The notes below the pieces were generated by a model, which did not search any database, was not told where the DNA came from, and was given only the letters and a program-made list of their open reading frames with translations. A program made the translations under genes and the position numbers. A DNA stretch of 57,048 nt from Halorubrum yunnanense (lineage in GTDB: Archaea > Halobacteriota > Halobacteria > Halobacteriales > Haloferacaceae): NCBI RefSeq assembly GCF_026586675.1, contig NZ_JAODIX010000068.1:10981-68028 (forward strand), given 5' to 3'. Shown here one piece after another: positions 23,414 through 40,312 of the stretch (its first letter is position 1; the number at the start of each line of letters is the position of its first letter).

Positions 23414-23495
23414 CGCCAGGAGAGGGATTTGAACCCCCGATCCCAGAAGGGAACACGCTTTCCAGGCGTGCGCCTTACCACTCGGCCATCCTGGC
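23414..23495 (-). tRNA. tRNA-Ser (anticodon GGA)
   Basis: On the minus strand a cloverleaf folds completely. The acceptor stem is GCCAGGA with TCCTGGC and discriminator G. The D arm is TGGCCGAGTGGTAAGGC, the anticodon stem CACGC/GCGTG has loop CTGGAAA (anticodon at plus 23461-23463), the variable arm is long (TCCC/GGGA stem), and the T loop is TTCAAAT. The long variable arm and discriminator G fit serine. No intron is present and CCA is not encoded. Confidence 0.97.
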
Positions 23496-29726: not shown

Positions 29727-32231
29727 TCAACGGCCGCCGGAGTCGCTTTCGGACTCCGCGTACGACCGGAGCTGTAGCTCCGCGCTCTCGGTGAGCCTGT
29801 CGAGCGCCTCCGCCGTCCCGTACTCCCGCGCCTCGACCGACGCCTCGGCGACGAGCGTCCGGACCGTGTCGAACGGCCCTATCCGGGCTCCCGTCGTGGC
29901 GACGCGGTCCTCGGCGTCCGCCAGCTGGTCCATCGCCGTCCGGTAGCCGGGGTTCTCGTTGAACCAGCCCTCCCGGGAAAGCCGGTCGACGGCCCCCTCG
30001 TGGACCGGGAAGTAGCCCGTCTCGCGGTGCCAGCGGGCCTGCCGCTCCGGGGCCGCGAGCCACCCGAGGAACGCGGCGGCCGCGCGCTTCGCGTCGGTCG
30101 GCGCGCCGTCGGCGACCCACAGCGACCCGCCCCCGACGACGACGCCGTGGCGCTCGTCGGCCACCGGGAAGTAGCCGGTGCCGACGGGGAACGATGCCCC
30201 CTCGCGAACGGTGACCATCGCCGAGGTCGACCCGATAAGCATGCCGGCGCGCCCGTCGTGGAACGCCTCTCTGGCCTGCCCCCGCGCCTCGATTCCGGGG
30301 TCGTGGTACAGCCCGTCGGCCGCCATCTCGGCGATCCACTCGTACACCCGCTCGCCCGCCTCGGCGTCGAAGTACGCCTCGGTCGGGGTCCCCGCCCGGC
30401 CGTTCTCGGCGTCGACGAGGGGCTGGCCCGCCTCGGCGAACCACTGCTCGACGAACCACGAGTAGTTCGCGAACGTGATGCCGGTCTCGACGCCGCCGCG
30501 CTCGACGAGCCGCTCGGCGCAGTGCCGCACCTCGGCGAACGTCGACGGCGGGTCGTCCGGGTTCAGCCCGGCGCGCTCGAAGGCCGCCCGGTCGTAGTAG
30601 AGTACCGGCGTCGAGGCGTTAAAGGGGAGCGAGTGGAGCCGCCCGTCCGTCCGGTAGTAGTTCGCGACCGGGTCGAGGAGGTCGTCGGGGTCGAGCGCGG
30701 CGTTGGCCCCGAACCGGTCGCGGTCGACCGCCTCCAACAGCCCCTCGACCGGCGCGAACGCGCCGCTGTCGAGCGCGCGCTTCGTCCCGATCTCGTAGAG
30801 GTGCGCGACCGTCGGCGGCTCGCCGCGCTCGGCGGCCGCCAGCGTCGCGTCGAACACGCCGCGGTAGCTCCCCTTCGAGGACGGTCGGATCTCGACCCCC
30901 TCGGTCGCCGCCTCGAACTCGGCGGCGAACTCGTCGAGCAGGTGGGCCTTCCGCCCGCCGAGGGCGTGCCAGAACTCCACGACGGTCGCGTCGTCGTCCG
31001 CGGTCGCCCCGTCGAGCGCGTACGTCTCCAACTCCTCGTCGAGCGCACCCGTCCGGTCGGAGAGCGTCGACGCGCCCGCAGCCACCTCGGTCAGCGATGT
31101 CTTCTGCGTGTGGGCGATCGTCGTCACGGCGGCGGCGTCGGCGGCCGTGTCGTCCGCGAGCGCGCCCACCGATTCGACCATGTCGACGGCCTCCTCGATC
31201 GAGGCCGCTTGGTCGTCGGTCGCCTCGCTGATCTCCTCGACTCCGCTCGTCGTCTCCTCGACGTCCTCGGCGAGGTCGGCGAACGCCTCCAGCGCGGTCT
31301 CGGCCGTGTCGATCCCGTCGCCGACGCGCTCGCGCATGTCGGCGATCTCCGCGACGGTCGCGTCCGTCTCCTCGCGCACGTCGTCGATGGACGCCTCGAT
31401 CTCGGCGGTCGCCTCCTGCGCCTCCTCCGCGAGCGACTTCACCTCCTCGGCGACGACCTCGAAGCCGGCGCCGGCCTCGCCGGCCCGCGCGGCCTCGATC
31501 GAGGCGTTCAGCGCGAGGATGTTCGTCTCGTCGGCGATATCGCGGATGAGGTCGGTGACGTCCTCGATCGCGGCGACTTCGCTCTCCAGCGACTCGACGC
31601 GCTCGCGGGCGGTCTCGGTGCGTTCGTCGACGACCCGGAGCTCGTCGATCGCGGCCGTGGCGGCGTCGTTGCCCTCGTCGGCGCGCTCGGCGACGCTCGC
31701 CGCGGTGGTCGCGACCTCCTCGGCGGAGGCGGCGACCTCCTCGGTCGCCGCGGAGACGCTCTGCAGCTCCCGCGTCGCCTCCGCGATCTCGTCGCGCTGC
31801 GTCGTCGCGGCCGCCTCGATGTCGTCGACCGCGGCGTACACGTCCTCGCTGCGGTCCTTCGCCCGCGCCACGTTCGACCGGACGTGATCGGACGCTCCCG
31901 CGACCTCGTCGCCGAACCCGTCGGCCGCCGAGAGGGTGTCGGCGACGTCGTCGACGAAGGCGTTGAGGTCGCTCGCGAGCGCGGCCGCCTCGGTGTCCCT
32001 CTCGTCCCCGTCAGGCTCCGGGAACCGCGCGCCCAGGTCGCCGTCGGCGAGCCGCGCCGCGACCTCGCGGAACGCCCCCGTCGGAAGCCCCTCGTCGTCA
32101 CCGGACGCCTCCGGCCCCTCGCTCGCTCCCGTCGCCGTCGCTCCGTTCGTCGCGTGCCCGTTCGACCGCTCTCCGTCCCCTCGGGACGGCTTCTCTCCGT
32201 TCGACCGTTCGCCGCCGCCGTTTCGACTCAT
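29727..32231 (-). CDS. Soluble chemotaxis transducer fused to an ABC-type solute-binding domain
   Basis: An 834-residue chimera. After a low-complexity N-terminus, a HAMP-like segment (about 50-100) leads into an MCP signalling domain; its hairpin tip [20 protein letters not shown] lies near residues 234-253. From about 416 an UgpB-like solute-binding domain follows ([52 protein letters not shown]). There is no signal peptide, lipobox or transmembrane helix, so both halves should be cytoplasmic and the binding domain would sense an internal solute. It could feed CheA like other soluble haloarchaeal transducers. TATA gtatataac at 32254-32262 (plus numbering) precedes the ATG. Confidence 0.88.
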
Positions 32232-32326: not shown

Positions 32327-33151
32327 CTACGCGTCGGCGTCGTCGGCGTGCGCTTCGTCACCCTCGTCGCGTTCCTCGGCGACATCGACGCGCTCCGCGA
32401 ACCCGAACCGCGGCTTGGCCTCGTCGATCTCGACGGTCACGGTCTCGCCGACCGCGGCGTCCGAGACGAAGACCGAGTACCCCTCGACGTACGCGATCCC
32501 GTCGCCCTCGTCGCCGAGCTCTTCGACGGTCACCTCCAGTCGGTCGCCCGCCTCGACGGGCGCCGTGTTCAGTCCCTTCGCGACGAGGTACACCTCCGAG
32601 GAGGAGTCGCGGGAGGCGGGCGGCGAGACGGTCCGGAGGTACTGGAACTCCCCGCGGACGTCCTCGCGGAAGGCGTCGAGGTCCTCGCCCTGGAAGGCCT
32701 TCGCGACGAAGTCGCCGCCGGGCGCGAGCAGCTCCTCGGCCACGTCGAACGCCTGCCTGGCGAGGTGAATCGACCGGGCGTGGTCGAGGGAGTACTCGCC
32801 GGTCATGTTCGGCGCCATGTCGGAGACGACGACGTCGGCCCCGCGCTCGCCGACCGCCTCGCGCAGGTAGTGACGCGTGCGCTCGTCGGTCATGTCGCCG
32901 CGGATCGTCTCGGCGTCGTGCTCCTCGAGGTCGTCGATGCGCTGGAGGTCGACGCCGACGACCGTCCCTGACTCGCCGACCTCTTCGGCGGCGACCTGTA
33001 GCCACCCGCCGGGCGCGGCGCCGAGGTCGACGACGGTGTCGCCGCGCTCGAACAGGTCCGACTCCTCGTCGATCTGTTTCAGCTTGTAGGCCGACCGGGC
33101 GCGGTACCCCTGCTGTTTCGACTTGTTGTAGTATTTGTCCTTTCCTGCCAT
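32327..33151 (-). CDS. rlmE: 23S rRNA 2'-O-ribose methyltransferase RlmE (FtsJ) with TRAM domain
   Basis: A 274-residue FtsJ-type enzyme that methylates the ribose of a uridine in the 23S rRNA A loop. The SAM site is [15 protein letters not shown] near residue 40. The K-D-K-E tetrad is visible as K in SAYKLKQ, D in [12 protein letters not shown] in DFVAKAFQ and E in [19 protein letters not shown]-binding domain follows (about 200-255; [20 protein letters not shown]). An 84%-identical copy of the first 88 bp recurs at 36309-36396 in a chimeric gene. Confidence 0.93.
33064..33151 (-). repeat. Direct repeat A (5' end of rlmE)
   Basis: The first 29 codons of rlmE. By eye about 74 of 88 positions match the segment at 36309-36396, ungapped and in the same orientation. 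The two copies bracket the roughly 3.2-kb island with tauE, the PolB remnant and the kinase chimera. Confidence 0.85.
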
Positions 33152-33237
33152 TGGTTGCGGGCCGTAGACGATACAGGCCTAAACCCGTGTCGTTGTCCCG
33201 ATTCGTCCGCCAAACATCCAGAGATTGTTACCGGTAC

Positions 33238-33408
33238 ATGAGACAGAAGATAATGAAGCAAACAACCGTATTAGACACTGAAATACCCGAAAGCGTCCGA
33301 CACGGGCGGCTATCGAACCTCCGAGATTCCCCGCTCGTTTACCGATTAGAAAGCGTGCAAGCCCATGAGGGACATATCCGGTGTATCTCCGACTCCCACC
33401 TCCTATGA
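33238..33408 (+). CDS. Possible small protein before the TauE-like gene
   Basis: A 56-codon frame (opening MRQKIMKQTTVLDTEIPESV) that ends by overlapping the next gene's ATG as ATGA, the usual sign of coupled genes. The region is more AT-rich than its surroundings and contains no recognised motif; the composition is not acidic. It may be a remnant carried with the island. No clear promoter is seen. Confidence 0.25.
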   Translation: MRQKIMKQTTVLDTEIPESVRHGRLSNLRDSPLVYRLESVQAHEGHIRCISDSHLL

Positions 33409-34328
33409 GTTCACAGGAATCGCACGTCGACGCTGAACAGTTCCTCACCAATCTTGTCAATTTCCGCTACCGGGAGGTGATGATGGCACTCGCGACACTC
33501 ATCGTCGTCGCCGGGTCGGTCGTCTTCTTTCCGGGGACGGACAACCTCACCGCGGGACTTCAGTCGGACGTGTCGGGTGGGTTGCTCGCCCTGTTCGTTC
33601 TCGTCGCAATCGCGGCCGGTGCGGTCAAGGGGATGATCGGCTTTGGCTACGCGCTCATCACGACGCCCATCTTCGCGTCGGTCATCGACCCGACGCTCGC
33701 GGTGGTCGTGCTCGCGATTCCCCCGTGGATGCTCAACGTCTTCCAAATCGGCGAGACGGACACTGGCATCGCGTTCATCCGGGAGGAGTGGGTGTTGCTC
33801 GGACTGGCTGTCGTCGGCTCTGTTATCGGCGTCACGTTCCTCTCGCAGTTCCGGACCGGCCCCATCGTCCCCTTCCTCATCGGGCTGGTCATCCTGGGCT
33901 ACGTCGTCTTTCAGGTCCTCCAGAACTTCGTCACGGTCGAGGAAGCCCACCACCCCGTCGCGCTCAGCGTCGCTGGCTTCCTGGAGGGATTCTTGCTCGC
34001 GGTGGCCAACCTCGGCCCGGTTCTCCCCACGTACTTCCACACGTTCGAACGTGACGTCGAGCGGTATATCGGCGGACTCTCGATGGTTCTCCTGACGATA
34101 TTCACCGTCCGCATCCTCCAGATGGCCTTCTTTACCGACCTCATGACGACATACCGGCTCTGGCTCGGTTCGGTCATCGCCGTCGTCACCATCGTCGGCC
34201 TGCTCATCGGCACCTACCTGCGACGGCTCGAAATCGACGAGGAGAAGTTCAACTGGCTCGTGGTCGGACTCCTCTTTCTCATCACGCTCAACATCTTCCG
34301 GAACACGATTCCGGCGCTGTTTTTCTGA
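33405..34328 (+). CDS. TauE/SafE-family membrane transporter (sulfite exporter type)
   Basis: A 307-residue membrane protein with about eight helices. Both TauE half-repeat signatures are visible: AIAAGAVKGMIGFGYALITT near residue 72 and LSVAGFLEGFLLAVANLGPV near 190. The family moves sulfite, sulfoacetate or related anions outwards. It is intact and is the only gene of the island that looks whole. Base composition is slightly less GC-rich than in flanking genes, consistent with transfer. The ATG at 33405 is preferred over one eight codons earlier. Confidence 0.85.
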   Translation: MSSQESHVDAEQFLTNLVNFRYREVMMALATLIVVAGSVVFFPGTDNLTAGLQSDVSGGLLALFVLVAIAAGAVKGMIGFGYALITTPIFASVIDPTLAVVVLAIPPWMLNVFQIGETDTGIAFIREEWVLLGLAVVGSVIGVTFLSQFRTGPIVPFLIGLVILGYVVFQVLQNFVTVEEAHHPVALSVAGFLEGFLLAVANLGPVLPTYFHTFERDVERYIGGLSMVLLTIFTVRILQMAFFTDLMTTYRLWLGSVIAVVTIVGLLIGTYLRRLEIDEEKFNWLVVGLLFLITLNIFRNTIPALFF

Positions 34329-34380
34329 TTACTGTCGTTCCCCACGGTAGACATTTGCTACCGCGGCACATACAGCCGGC

Positions 34381-35682
34381 ATGGCCTACTGCGAGCACTG
34401 CGGCTTTCGCATCGAGCGGGGGGTAGAAACCTGCCAACAGTGTGGCCACCTCGACTTCTCGTACGTCAGCGACGACGCCAAACCGATCGACCCCGAAGAC
34501 ATCAGGTGGGCCGACACCGAGCGGAACTTCGACTTCGAGACGACGAGCCGTGAACTGGCTGCCGGGCTCTCGGTGTTGCTTACCCAGCGCGGAGAGAAGC
34601 ACTCGTTGAAATACAGGGACGCAAAATCGTCGTACACGATTCGGACCTGTGACTACTACCGTTCCGGACGCGACCCGGTGCTAAACGACGTCGACCACGA
34701 CGGGTACGTCTACGACCTGAGTGTCGAAGAAAACGAGAACTTCGTCGACGGCGTCGGCGGTCTCGTCCTCCACAACACCGACTCGGTTATGTTAGAGGTT
34801 GGAGATGTCGGCCCCGAAGATGTCGAGGGCGGGGTCGAGATTACCGACGAGATGCGGGAGAAACACCCGGAAATGGATGAGGGGGAACTCGAAACCATCG
34901 CGGCGACAATCCAGAAGGGGTTCGAACTGGAAGACGTCATCAACAGTTCCTACGACGAGTTCGCCCTGGAGGAACTCAACGCGGCCGAACACCGCTTCCA
35001 GATCGAGTTCGAGAAACTCTACCGGCGCTTCTTCCAGGCGGGCAAGAAGAAACGCTACGCGGGACATATCGTCTGGAAGGAGGGCAAGGACGTCGACGAC
35101 ATCGACATCACGGGCTTCGAGTACCAGCGCTCTGACATCGCCGCCATCACGAAAGAGGTCCAGAAGGAGGTCATCGACATGATTGTGACCGGCGAGGACA
35201 CAGAGACGGTCAAGGAGTACCTCCACGAGGTCATCGAGGATTTCCGGGCGGGCAACGTCTCGCTGTCGGATGTGGGCATCCCCGGCGGCATCGGGAAGAA
35301 ACTGGACAACTACGACACCGACACCGCGCAGGTCCGGGGCGCGAAGTACGCCAACATGCTGCTGGGAACAAATTTCCAGAGCGGCTCGAAACCCAAGCGA
35401 CTGTATCTGAAGAAGGTCCACCCCGATTTCTTCCAGCGGGTGCAGGACGAGCAGGGGCTGGACCCCTCCGAGGACCCGCTGTATGGCGAGTTCAAGCGGG
35501 ACCCGGACGTCATCTGCTTCGAGTACGACGACCAGGTGCCCGAGGAGTTCGAGGTGGACTGGGACAAGATGCTCGACAAGACGCTGAAAGGCCCAATCGA
35601 GCGCATCATCGAGGCACTGGGCATCTCGTGGGAGGAGGTCAGGTCCGGGCAGGAACAGACCGGACTCGGGCAGTACATGTGA
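34381..35682 (+). pseudogene. Chimeric remnant: zinc ribbon + intein C-terminus + PolB C-terminal part
   Basis: An open 433-codon frame made of three parts. Residues 1-25 are a zinc ribbon (CEHCGFRIERGVETCQQC). Residues about 41-132 are the C-terminal end of an intein, with block F/G VYDLSVEENENFVDGVGGL and terminal LVLHN. From 133 it is family-B DNA polymerase from motif C (TDSVMLEVGDV) through the thumb (KKKRYAGHIVWKEGKDVDD) to the natural end LGQYM. The catalytic YGD, motifs A and B, exonuclease and most of the intein are absent, so neither polymerase nor splicing activity is possible. Foreign polB debris joined in frame to another gene's start is the best reading. Confidence 0.88.
34501..34776 (+). 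other. Intein C-terminal fragment (YGD|TDS insertion site)
   Basis: This part of the chimera carries the end of a LAGLIDADG-type endonuclease/splicing region (ELAAGLSVLLTQRGEKHSLK), then intein block F and block G ending His-Asn, directly followed by Thr-Asp-Ser of PolB motif C. That is the well-known polymerase insertion point. The left boundary is approximate. Confidence 0.85.
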
Positions 35683-35703
35683 CCGGACTGTCACCGCCAG
35701 CAG

Positions 35704-36396
35704 CTAGTCGGTCAGAATCTCGAAGCGCGCACCGCCGTCCTCGCCGTTCGTAATCTGCAATTCCCAGCCGTGGGCGTCGGTGACGTTCTCGACGATCTGG
35801 AGGCCGTACCGGCCTTTTTCGGTGTAGTAGTCGACGACGGACTGGCCGGCGGCGAGGGCATCCTCGGGAAAGCCGGGGCCGTCGTCTTCGACGTAGAATC
35901 CACCGTCGATGTCCCCGACGGTGACGGTTACGCCATCCTCGGCCTGTGACTGACTGTCCGTCGAACCGTGCTCCACGCTATTCCGAAAGAGGTTCTCGAA
36001 GCACTGTCTCAGGCGTCGTGGGTCGGCGTCGACGGTGGCTGTCGTCTCGACGTCGAGCGTTCCGGGCCCATCGCTGGTGGCGTCCCACACCTGCCGTGCC
36101 ATCGACTGTAGCTCCACGATCTCCGTCTCGTGGATGTCCCCGCCCGTGCGCGCAACCGTAAGAACCTGGTCGACGATTTCCTCCATCCGTTCTGTCGCCT
36201 CGGCTATCGACTGGAGCCGGTCTTCGTGTTCGGACTCTTCGATGAGTGCCAGATTCGCACTGATAATCTGGAGCGGGTTGCGCAGGTCGTGTGAGACGAG
36301 TCCGGCGGCCTCGTCTAACTGTTTGAGTTTGTAGGCCGACCGGGCGCGATACCCCTCCTGTTTGGCCTTGTTGTAGTATTCGTCTTTGCCGCTCAT
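35704..36396 (-). CDS. RlmE N-terminus fused to histidine kinase core
   Basis: A 230-residue in-frame chimera. Residues 1-29 are an RlmE start (SGKDEYYNKAKQEGYRARSA then YKLKQLDE). From residue 30 a complete kinase core follows: H box GLVSHDLRNPLQ, N box FENLFRNSVEH, G1 DDGPGFPED and G2 YGLQIVENVTDAHG. There is no sensor or membrane domain. Kinases of this type often read LDE-x-A-x-x-V-S-H-D-L-R-N before the H box, so the join at LDE fits recombination through a short shared sequence. It may be an expressed soluble kinase or a dead hybrid. The start is the rlmE-type ATG. Confidence 0.85.
   Translation of the reverse strand: MSGKDEYYNKAKQEGYRARSAYKLKQLDEAAGLVSHDLRNPLQIISANLALIEESEHEDRLQSIAEATERMEEIVDQVLTVARTGGDIHETEIVELQSMARQVWDATSDGPGTLDVETTATVDADPRRLRQCFENLFRNSVEHGSTDSQSQAEDGVTVTVGDIDGGFYVEDDGPGFPEDALAAGQSVVDYYTEKGRYGLQIVENVTDAHGWELQITNGEDGGARFEILTD
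36309..36396 (-). repeat. Direct repeat B (rlmE-like 5' end in the chimera)
   Basis: The second copy of the 88-bp rlmE start, about 84% identical to 33064-33151, in the same orientation. The differences are spread out, so this copy probably comes from another haloarchaeon and not from a recent local duplication. Confidence 0.85.
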
Positions 36397-36548
36397 CTGC
36401 CTCTCCTCCCGTCTCGTGACGCCTTGCGCGCGAAGACCGCTGGCGAAACTGCGTTCATAAGGTCGCATACGCCGCCGACGCGGAAAGGGACGTCGGATGT
36501 GCGCCCCCTCTCGCCCGCGGGCGACTCGGAAAGATTTACAAGTGTGCT

Positions 36549-36562
36549 TTTGTTCGTACAAA
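36549..36562 (+). promoter_or_regulatory. Candidate operator before cbtB
   Basis: An imperfect palindrome TTTGT-TCGT-ACAAA-like (5-bp arms) lies 11 nt before the cbtB ATG in an AT-rich stretch. A metal- or cobalamin-responsive repressor would be plausible from the neighbouring genes. This is inference from symmetry and position only. Confidence 0.3.
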
Positions 36563-36573
36563 TTAGATTGTCA

Positions 36574-36756
36574 ATGGCTGCGAACACGGTTCACGACCGG
36601 CTGTGACTCGCGCGAACGGAACTCACGCTCACGCAGGTGCTGTCCGTCCTCCTCGCGGTGGCGGCGCTCGGCTTCGCGCTCGCGCTGCTCCAGGAGCCGA
36701 CGGCACACGAGGCGATGCACGACTTCCGGCACGCGGCCGGCGTCGTCTGCCACTGA
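36574..36756 (+). pseudogene. cbtB: CbtB cobalt transporter subunit with in-frame stop
   Basis: The frame encodes a CbtB-like small membrane protein: VHDRL at the start, then LARTELTLTQVLSVLLAVAA, GFALALLQEPTAHEAMHD and the His-rich end FRHAAGVVCH. Codon 11 (36604-36606) is TGA, which breaks the protein after ten residues. The rest of the frame is well conserved, so the loss is recent, or the base is a read error. CbtB works with CbtA in Co2+ uptake for cobalamin. It ends one base before the cbtA start. Confidence 0.8.
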
Positions 36757-36757
36757 G

Positions 36758-37240
36758 ATGATCGCCGCCTACGTGGCGAACGGCGTCAAGTCCGGGCTCG
36801 TCGCGGGGCTCGCCTTCGGGCTGCTCGTGGCGCTCGTGGCGAACCCGCTCGTGGCGTTCGCCGAGGGGAGCGCGCACGTCGAAGGCGCGGGCGGCCACGA
36901 CCACGCGGGCGACTCTCACGGGGAGGGCGGGCTCTCGGCTTCCGTCGCCGACGGCGCGAGCGTGCTCTCCGGCGTCCTCTGGGGCGTCTTCCTCGGCGTC
37001 GTCGCGTTCGGGGTCGCCTTCTACCTCCTCGAGCCGATCGTCCCGGGATCCGGCGCGGTCCGGAGCTACGCGTTCGGCGCCGCAGGCCTGCTGACGGCCT
37101 CCGTCGCGCCGTGGCTCGCGTTCCCGCCCGGACCGCCCGGGAACGTCGGCCGTCGCGGCGGCAGCGGCCTCGCGGCCGGGCTGACGAACGAGCTGGTCCA
37201 CGTCGCCAGCGACGCCCGCGACGGCGGGGTCGAGCTGTGA
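36758..37240 (+). pseudogene. CbtA N-terminal part fused in frame to the end of CbiC
   Basis: The first about 133 codons are CbtA, a cobalt transporter with several helices and a His-rich loop (GAGGHDHAGDSHGEGG), and reach PWLAFPPGPPG. The remaining about 27 codons (NVGRRGGSGLAAGLTNELVH and on) match the conserved end of precorrin-8X methylmutase CbiC, whose relatives end G-R-[KR]-G-G-S-x-x-A-A. A deletion has joined the two genes, removing the end of cbtA, most of cbiC and whatever lay between. Neither function should survive. The stop overlaps the GTG of cbiE. Confidence 0.78.
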
Positions 37241-38824: not shown

Positions 38825-40312
38825 TCACCCGTCCAGCTCCTCGCGGAGCAGCCCGTTCACCTCGCCGGGGTCGGCGCTCCCGCCCGTCGCCTGCATTACC
38901 TGGCCGACGAGGAAGTTGATCGCGCCCTCGTCGCCGTCGTGATAGTCGCCGACCGCGTCGGGGTTGTCGTCGATGGCGGCCGCGACCGCGGCCTCGACCT
39001 CGCCGGAGTCGGCGACGCCGAGCCCCTCGCGCTCGATGACGGTGTCGGGGTCGTCGCCCGCGTCGAGCATCTCGCGGAGGACGACCTCCTCGGCGTTTTT
39101 CACGGTGAGCTCCTCGGCGGCGACGAGTTCGACGAGGCGCTTGAACTCGTCCAGACGGTCCTCGACGTCCGTAATCTGCATCTCGCGGTAGTTGAGTTCG
39201 CCGAGGAGGTTGTCCGCGACCCACGTCGCCGCGAGGTCGGGGTCGAACGACTCCGCGACGTCCTCGAAGAAGTCGGCGACCGCCTTCGTCGAGGTGAGCT
39301 TCGAGGCGGACTCGCGGTCGAGCCCGTACGCCTCCCGGAAGCGCTCGCGGCGGGCGTCGGGCAGCTCCGGGATCGGGATCTGCTCTTTCCAGTCCGACAC
39401 CTCCAGGGCGGGGAGGTCGGCCTCGCGGAAGTAGCGGTAGTCCTTCTCGGCCTCCTTCGAGCGCATCGAGACGGTGACGCCGCGCCCCTCGTCCCAGTGG
39501 CGGGTCTCCTGTTCGATCTCGCGGCCGCGCCGGAGGACGTTCTCCTGCCGGGTGATATCGTACGCGAGCGCCTGCTCGGCGCCCTTGTGGCTGGAGATGT
39601 TCTTCACCTCGGCGCGGTTCACGTCCGCGAGGGCGTCGTCCGTGATCGTCCCGTCGTCGGCGACCTCGCTTTCGGGCACGAGCGAGACGTTGGCGTCAAC
39701 GCGCAGGCTCCCGTCGCGGGTCGGGTCGAAGACGCCGAGGTACTCGAGGACCTCCTCCAGCTTCGCCAGGAAGGCCCGCGTCTCCGCCGGCGACCGGAAG
39801 TCCGGCTCGGTGACGATCTCCATCAGCGGCGTCCCGGCGCGGTTGTAGTCCACGAGGGTGTGAGTGGCGCTCTCGATGGAGCCCCCGGCGTGCTGGAGGC
39901 TCCCGGGGTCCTCCTCTAGGTGCGCGCGCGCGATCCCGATGGTCCGGGGCTCGCTGTCGACGCGGACCTCCAGCTCCCCGGACTGGCAGATCGGGGCGTC
40001 GTACTGCGTGAGCTGGAAGTTTTTCGGCAGGTCGGGGTAGTAGTAGTTCTTCCGGTGGAACGTCGTCGTCTCGGGGATGTCGGCGTCGATCGCCTTGCCG
40101 ACCTTCACCGCGGCCTCGACGGCGCCCTCGTTGAGGACCGGCAGCGCGCCCGGCAGCCCGAGGCAGGTCGGGCACGTGCGCGTGTTCGGCTCCTCCTCGG
40201 CGGCGGGCTCCGTCGAACAGCCGCAGAAGATCTTCGTGTCGGTCTCGAGCTGGACGTGGACCTCCAGCCCGATCACGACCGTGTGGTCTTCCGTCGCGGC
40301 CTGAGTACTCAT
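38825..40312 (-). CDS. gatB: Asp-tRNA(Asn)/Glu-tRNA(Gln) amidotransferase subunit B
   Basis: A 495-residue subunit of the GatCAB amidotransferase, which converts mischarged Asp-tRNA(Asn) or Glu-tRNA(Gln) to the amide form. The catalytic cradle starts VVIGLEVHVQLETDTKIFCG, with a zinc-binding set of Cys (CGCS and CPTCLGLPG). Later marks are FHRKNYYYPDLPKNFQLTQY near residue 85, YNRAGTPLMEIVTEPDFRS near 154 and the GatB/YqeY tail (GQVMQATGGSADPGEVNGLL). A minus-strand gatttagg at 40338-40345 lies 26-33 nt before the ATG. Repeat copy 3 lies further upstream. Confidence 0.95.
   Translation of the reverse strand: MSTQAATEDHTVVIGLEVHVQLETDTKIFCGCSTEPAAEEEPNTRTCPTCLGLPGALPVLNEGAVEAAVKVGKAIDADIPETTTFHRKNYYYPDLPKNFQLTQYDAPICQSGELEVRVDSEPRTIGIARAHLEEDPGSLQHAGGSIESATHTLVDYNRAGTPLMEIVTEPDFRSPAETRAFLAKLEEVLEYLGVFDPTRDGSLRVDANVSLVPESEVADDGTITDDALADVNRAEVKNISSHKGAEQALAYDITRQENVLRRGREIEQETRHWDEGRGVTVSMRSKEAEKDYRYFREADLPALEVSDWKEQIPIPELPDARRERFREAYGLDRESASKLTSTKAVADFFEDVAESFDPDLAATWVADNLLGELNYREMQITDVEDRLDEFKRLVELVAAEELTVKNAEEVVLREMLDAGDDPDTVIEREGLGVADSGEVEAAVAAAIDDNPDAVGDYHDGDEGAINFLVGQVMQATGGSADPGEVNGLLREELDG

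Follow-up and report, generated by a model that had tools for sequence, protein, structure and literature searches.

The window analysed here, a stretch of 57,048 nucleotides from Halorubrum yunnanense (host genome G000; Halorubrum-like refers below to genus g1), contains an uninterrupted open reading frame on the forward strand at positions 34381-35682, which runs from an ATG to a TGA and encodes 433 amino acids. The first-pass annotation had described this frame as a zinc ribbon followed by the end of an intein and the end of DNA polymerase B (PolB), all within 433 codons, and both the translation and the Pfam matches bore this out. The three parts occupy residues 1-45, 46/47-132, and 133-433, respectively. 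They come from unrelated families and lie within one frame, as in composite genes. The chimeric frame (ZnR-intein-PolB) belongs to a larger foreign import in this Halorubrum-like genome, which spans approximately 33122-36396, or about 3.24 kb (Table 1). The earlier reading was incomplete in this respect: the import also holds a TauE/SafE permease, a truncated histidine kinase (HK), a foreign rlmE 5' end, and a second chimera, RlmE-HK.

Table 1. Features of the import and of its insertion site in window coordinates.
Feature	Position	Strand	Remarks
Native rlmE (FtsJ/TRAM, 23S rRNA methyltransferase type)	32327..33151	-	Halorubrum-like body, 90-93% DNA identity to genus relatives; leader changed
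Left crossover region, rlmE bp 19-30 (TACTACAACAAG)	33122..33133	-	Identical in both rlmE copies; flanking sites switch affinity
Imported intergenic region	33152..33380		GC 52%; holds rlmE leader and TauE start region
TauE/SafE permease, complete, imported	33381..34328	+	PF01925; 82% DNA and 84% protein identity to f4; GC3 0.84
Zinc-ribbon gene 5' end, first part of chimera	34381..34509	+	About 43-45 codons; Zn_Ribbon_1 E 1.2e-4 (residues 1-45 scanned alone); GC3 0.84
C-terminal part of motif-C polB intein, ending ...GGLVLHN	34510..34776	+	Intein_splicing match; DNA homology to G223, G465, and other polB inteins starts here
PolB C-extein, TDS of motif C to natural stop	34777..35682	+	DNA_pol_B match; 83% DNA identity to G223, contiguous with intein part
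Histidine kinase C-terminal part (HisKA and HATPase_c), imported	35704..36306	-	PF00512, PF02518; GC3 0.79; in frame with rlmE fragment
Second rlmE 5' end	36307..36396	-	26-29 codons; foreign from about bp 31; in-frame fusion to kinase
Right crossover region, rlmE bp 19-30	36367..36378	-	Counterpart of left region
Native rlmE upstream region (uORF leader, cbtA region)	36397..37140	-	83-86% identity, contiguous with rlmE in G118 and G108; 79% in G130

The frame had been said to start as a zinc-ribbon protein. A clear CxxC...CxxC pair agrees with this, but the family match was weak: Zn_Ribbon_1 matched residues 3-23 at E 2e-3 in the whole frame and at E 1.2e-4 when residues 1-45 were scanned alone, with 22.2 bits against a cut-off of 25 in the latter scan. 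The intein part comprises only the last ~86 residues of an intein, and the N-terminal splicing blocks and the first Cys/Ser are absent. Intein_splicing matched residues 102-132, covering profile positions 127-155 of 155 (E 1e-4, below the gathering cut-off). The C-terminal His-Asn is present and, as previously described, stands directly before PolB, with Thr as the next residue (VLHN/T, residues 129-133). The PolB part was matched by DNA_pol_B at residues 203-319 (E 2e-11), over profile positions 261-384 of 453 only. As the intein splits motif C (YGD/TDS), this part starts at TDS and lacks YGD; the earlier description of PolB from motif C to the natural end was right about the end but holds for only half of the motif. 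The C-terminus is near-intact and carries a PIP-like QTGLGQYM tail. The sequences spanning the fusion joins are WADTERNFDF and LDEAAGLVSHDL.

The frame lacks the N-terminal blocks of the intein and, on the polymerase side, the exonuclease domain, motifs A and B, and half of motif C. Neither splicing in cis nor polymerisation is therefore expected, in line with the original claim that both are impossible. Judged from its sequence, ZnR-intein-PolB most likely works neither as an intein nor as a polymerase. As to a possible split-intein partner, the host has only a complete motif-C intein, located in polB.

Base composition set the block apart. The GC content of the window drops from ~71-73% to ~60% between 33 and 36 kb, and the GC3 of the imported TauE, zinc ribbon, intein end, PolB end, and kinase was 0.79-0.85. 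The three native genes measured, namely the MCP/solute-binding gene at 29727-32231, rlmE, and the gene at 38825-40312, had GC3 values of 0.94-0.96. The first of these (minus strand) encodes an 834-residue protein with an MCP signalling domain (residues 187-355) followed by an extracellular solute-binding domain (residues 435-762), an unusual order for a chemoreceptor. TauE, the intein/PolB part, and the right rlmE 5' end were each closest to family f4, which we take to be Haloarculaceae. Within f4, the permease is patchy (32 of 142 genomes), and near relatives occur on many haloarchaeal plasmids; it may be a passenger worth keeping. A plasmid source was rejected, as the best 15 plasmid matches covered TauE only (72-78%). 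No integrase or transposase was found among the ORFs of the import. A tRNA-borne element was also rejected, the only tRNA of the window lying at 23414-23495 and none near the import. No useful DNA relative of the intergenic region at 33152-33380 was found, and the left junction region was matched by 2 of the 392 order genomes, the host itself and one with a 22-bp chance-like match.

The native host polB lies on another contig (C41), where it is complete, with inteins at motifs B and C in a single frame of 1807 aa. Protein identity to it was only 76% for the PolB part of the chimera and 85% for the intein part; the fragment was therefore not copied from the resident gene. The best DNA relatives of this piece were in f4, mostly at 81-83% identity. 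The polB of one f4 genome, G223, matched it at 83% over 1,177 bp, contiguously across window 34510-35686, which confirms the PolB descent of the C-terminal part and extends the match to f4 polB as far as 35686. Together, the f4 affinity and the distance from the host polB agree with the import of a foreign intein-bearing polB fragment proposed at first. The donor family could be placed in this way for the polB/intein part, but no donor was found for the zinc ribbon. The G223 gene itself (L065:7216-13770, minus strand) has three inteins, at motifs A, B, and C, in one frame of 2184 residues. A viral source was dismissed because viral contigs gave just two PolB matches, at 55%. A search for f4 polB elsewhere in the host genome found none.

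The PolB piece has no visible decay. One of 120 near-invariant columns was altered, as compared with 0-2 in nearly all intact homologues. Its dN/dS against the 15 nearest relatives was 0.15-0.20. The median over the nearest 25 relatives was 0.17, nominally slightly above that of intact pairs (0.12; 5th-95th percentile 0.04-0.18). Lineage-specific amino-acid changes averaged 19.7, versus 16.2 for the nearest intact gene. The undecayed state implies that the import is recent or that it has been maintained, and the data fit either. The first-pass annotation had stressed that the frame had stayed open; the frame is indeed open, but this is no sign of functional retention, as a recent import is equally explanatory.

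The zinc-ribbon/intein join lies at ~34509-34518. Strong DNA matches to haloarchaeal polB inteins start at 34510-34520 and never earlier, indicating that the join is real as sequence. Across it, none of the 170 family genomes or 392 order genomes matched by DNA. Intein homology begins at about CGAGCGG. The best relative of the zinc ribbon was a double-zinc-ribbon protein of G292, with a weak identity of 41% over residues 4-44, and the second ribbon of that protein would begin at the join (WACPDCG versus WADTERN); that microhomology acted here would be a guess. No close relative of the zinc-ribbon piece was found in 146 f4 genomes, 392 order genomes, or the named genome collection. The idea that it is a regular neighbor of TauE was discarded, since this was not seen among the f4 TauE loci examined. 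The piece was first regarded as another gene to which the polB fragment had been joined. The in-frame join stands, but the zinc ribbon has the same foreign base composition, lies inside the larger import, and is not demonstrably a host gene.

A second in-frame chimera is present on the minus strand. In the frame at 35704-36561, the first codons of rlmE are fused to HisKA-HATPase_c. The best relatives of the kinase piece had 49-53% protein identity, and none in f4 exceeded ~53%. The sequence around the rlmE-kinase join is KQLDEAAGLVSHDLRNPL. RlmE of f4 reads (Q/K)QLDETAG and f4 kinases read RLDEFA(S/G)xVSHDLRNPL, so that an in-frame LDE-x-A block is common to both, and the fusion bears signs of joining at a short shared sequence.

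This second chimera bears on whether ZnR-intein-PolB is a new functional gene that is expressed and retained. The product of such a gene could, for example, be a zinc-ribbon protein carrying the thumb and PCNA-binding tail of PolB, or an intein C-fragment active in cleavage or in trans-splicing. The open frame with its ATG, the near-intact PolB C-terminus with the PIP-like tail, and the undecayed PolB piece would be compatible with such a gene. However, the presence of two chimeras in one block suggests a mechanical cause, the intein has lost its N-terminal blocks, ZnR-intein-PolB was found in no other searched genome, and a recent import predicts the absence of decay equally well. We consider a new functional gene most improbable, and the features of the sequence lend no positive support to a PCNA-binding or zinc-ribbon role.

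The import lies at rlmE. In G118, G108, and G130, rlmE is continuous with the equivalent of window 36309-37140; the native unit, rlmE together with 36397-37140, has therefore been split by the import. The second rlmE 5' end duplicates 33064-33145 at 86.6% identity. Base frequencies in sequences from the genus (29) and from f4 (13) gave affinity scores for the two copies. Over rlmE bp 31-87, the log10 f4/Halorubrum score was -5.1 for the left copy and +6.5 for the right copy, and bp 1-30 did not discriminate between the two groups. The leaders showed the reverse arrangement: that of the right copy is of the native type with a conserved uORF, and that of the left copy is of a different type. The best scores of the left leader, both weak, were to one f4 leader (z 6.2) and one Halorubrum leader (z 5.6). 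The left leader is non-native, and an f4 origin is uncertain.

Leaders of rlmE also vary among relatives. Many Halorubrum-like genomes have a conserved uORF of 20-21 residues, M(N/S)AxSPA(I/V)..., before rlmE (36397-36459, minus strand, in the window; also L128, L130, L132-L134, L136, L138-L141, L143, L144, and L146-L153). Its TGA overlaps the rlmE ATG (ATGA), and indels between species preserve the uORF frame; this arrangement suggests possible translational coupling of uORF and rlmE. A second leader type in the same genus has no uORF (L127, L129, L131, L135, L142, L145, L154, and L155). The gene upstream of rlmE differs among relatives, and the site is hence a variable spot.

Campbell-type integration by a single crossover leaves the homologous region repeated in direct orientation at either end, together with reciprocal hybrids. 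Here, direct repeats lie at both ends of the import, and host and foreign parts have been exchanged between the two rlmE copies. Reciprocal hybrids of this kind are the mark of one crossover within rlmE bp 1-30, for which integration of a circle is the best explanation. Unlike typical cases, this one involves no plasmid or phage genes, the homology is shorter than 90 bp, and the circle is putative.

It could be argued that the reads of a co-occurring haloarchaeon were wrongly joined into a Halorubrum-like contig, as the assembly is a draft of 116 contigs and the join is carried by no second genome. However, completeness is 99.36% and estimated contamination 0.39%, and the block is internal to its contig and flanked by native sequence on each side. 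Several independent misjoins would be required, the rlmE copies are diverged, with at most ~20 consecutive identical bases, and f4 polB is absent elsewhere in the genome. Assembly error or contamination is accordingly very unlikely.

We propose, with a probability of roughly 0.6, that the chimeric frame is a by-product of horizontal transfer via mosaic foreign DNA that integrated at rlmE. A Halorubrum-like cell would have taken up DNA of f4. Unrelated pieces, presumably in this number, would have been joined: an rlmE 5' end, TauE, a zinc-ribbon 5' end, a polB 3' end cut within the motif-C intein, and a histidine-kinase 3' end. The joining was probably microhomology-mediated, and the product was probably a circle of ~3.24 kb (about 3,245 bp). 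Integration of the circle would then have taken one homologous crossover at the start of rlmE, within bp 1-30; the TACTACAACAAG shared at bp 19-30 is the simplest place for it. The native rlmE body would thereby have gained the imported leader and the native leader would now precede the RlmE-HK fusion, ZnR-intein-PolB being the other fusion product. The full version of this course, in which end-joined pieces from several loci formed a small non-replicating circle and one crossover in less than 90 bp of diverged homology at once gave two chimeras and exchanged the leader of an rRNA methyltransferase gene, is put forward only tentatively. The homology, at ~84-87% identity, is short for a crossover. 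Searches found no donor genome holding the pieces, and no circle, and the f4 genomes compared by coordinates showed no rlmE-TauE adjacency.

The same foreign DNA might also have arrived stepwise or in linear form. One end would then have entered by a crossover at rlmE and the opposite end by illegitimate joining, and later deletions, such as between zinc ribbon and intein or between kinase and rlmE, would have shortened an import that was once larger. All parts are foreign, the donor loci are non-adjacent in the sampled genomes, and the origin of the left leader is uncertain, as such a course would allow. Larger contiguous donor pieces are conceivable, since polB and a kinase gene are convergent in one MAG, QS_1_68_20 (L185). 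This arrangement was seen once among ~100 PolB loci; it is possible in a donor but could be chance, and it was rejected as proof of a contiguous donor piece. Moreover, a stepwise course needs a coincidence to place the leader/body exchange at the same point in both rlmE copies, which one crossover explains. We therefore regard the stepwise course as rather unlikely.

The import and its chimeras are known kinds of event that are unusually readable here. Composite genes have been reported in numbers from haloarchaea (PMC5992828). As far as described there, they resemble the present frame in that parts of unrelated families share a single frame and some were acquired horizontally; those genes are conserved and have bacterial parts, whereas ours occurs in a single genome, is apparently recent, and has a haloarchaeal donor. 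The flow of polB inteins among Halobacteria (PMC4071816) likewise involves intein-bearing polB DNA crossing lineages, but the inteins there are mobile alleles within polB, whereas the truncated intein here is a passenger on a polB 3' piece at an unrelated site. Microhomology-mediated end joining operates in Haloferax volcanii, which has no Ku (PMC7776575). Joins at few shared bases, for which Ku-type joining is unneeded, are common to both cases; there the pathway repairs host breaks, and here it may have joined foreign pieces.

Events that form composite genes are usually too old to read. At this locus, the host, the foreign family, the site, and the joins are visible within 3.2 kb. The locus is also a caution for annotation, as family searches will label the frame a DNA polymerase or an intein protein, although neither identity is expected to hold. 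It indicates how a truncated intein can move without homing, on a polB 3' end, and how chimeras and a new leader for a resident gene could both arise from one crossover. If the proposed joining and single crossover are correct, archaeal composite genes could form in this way with no mobile element involved.
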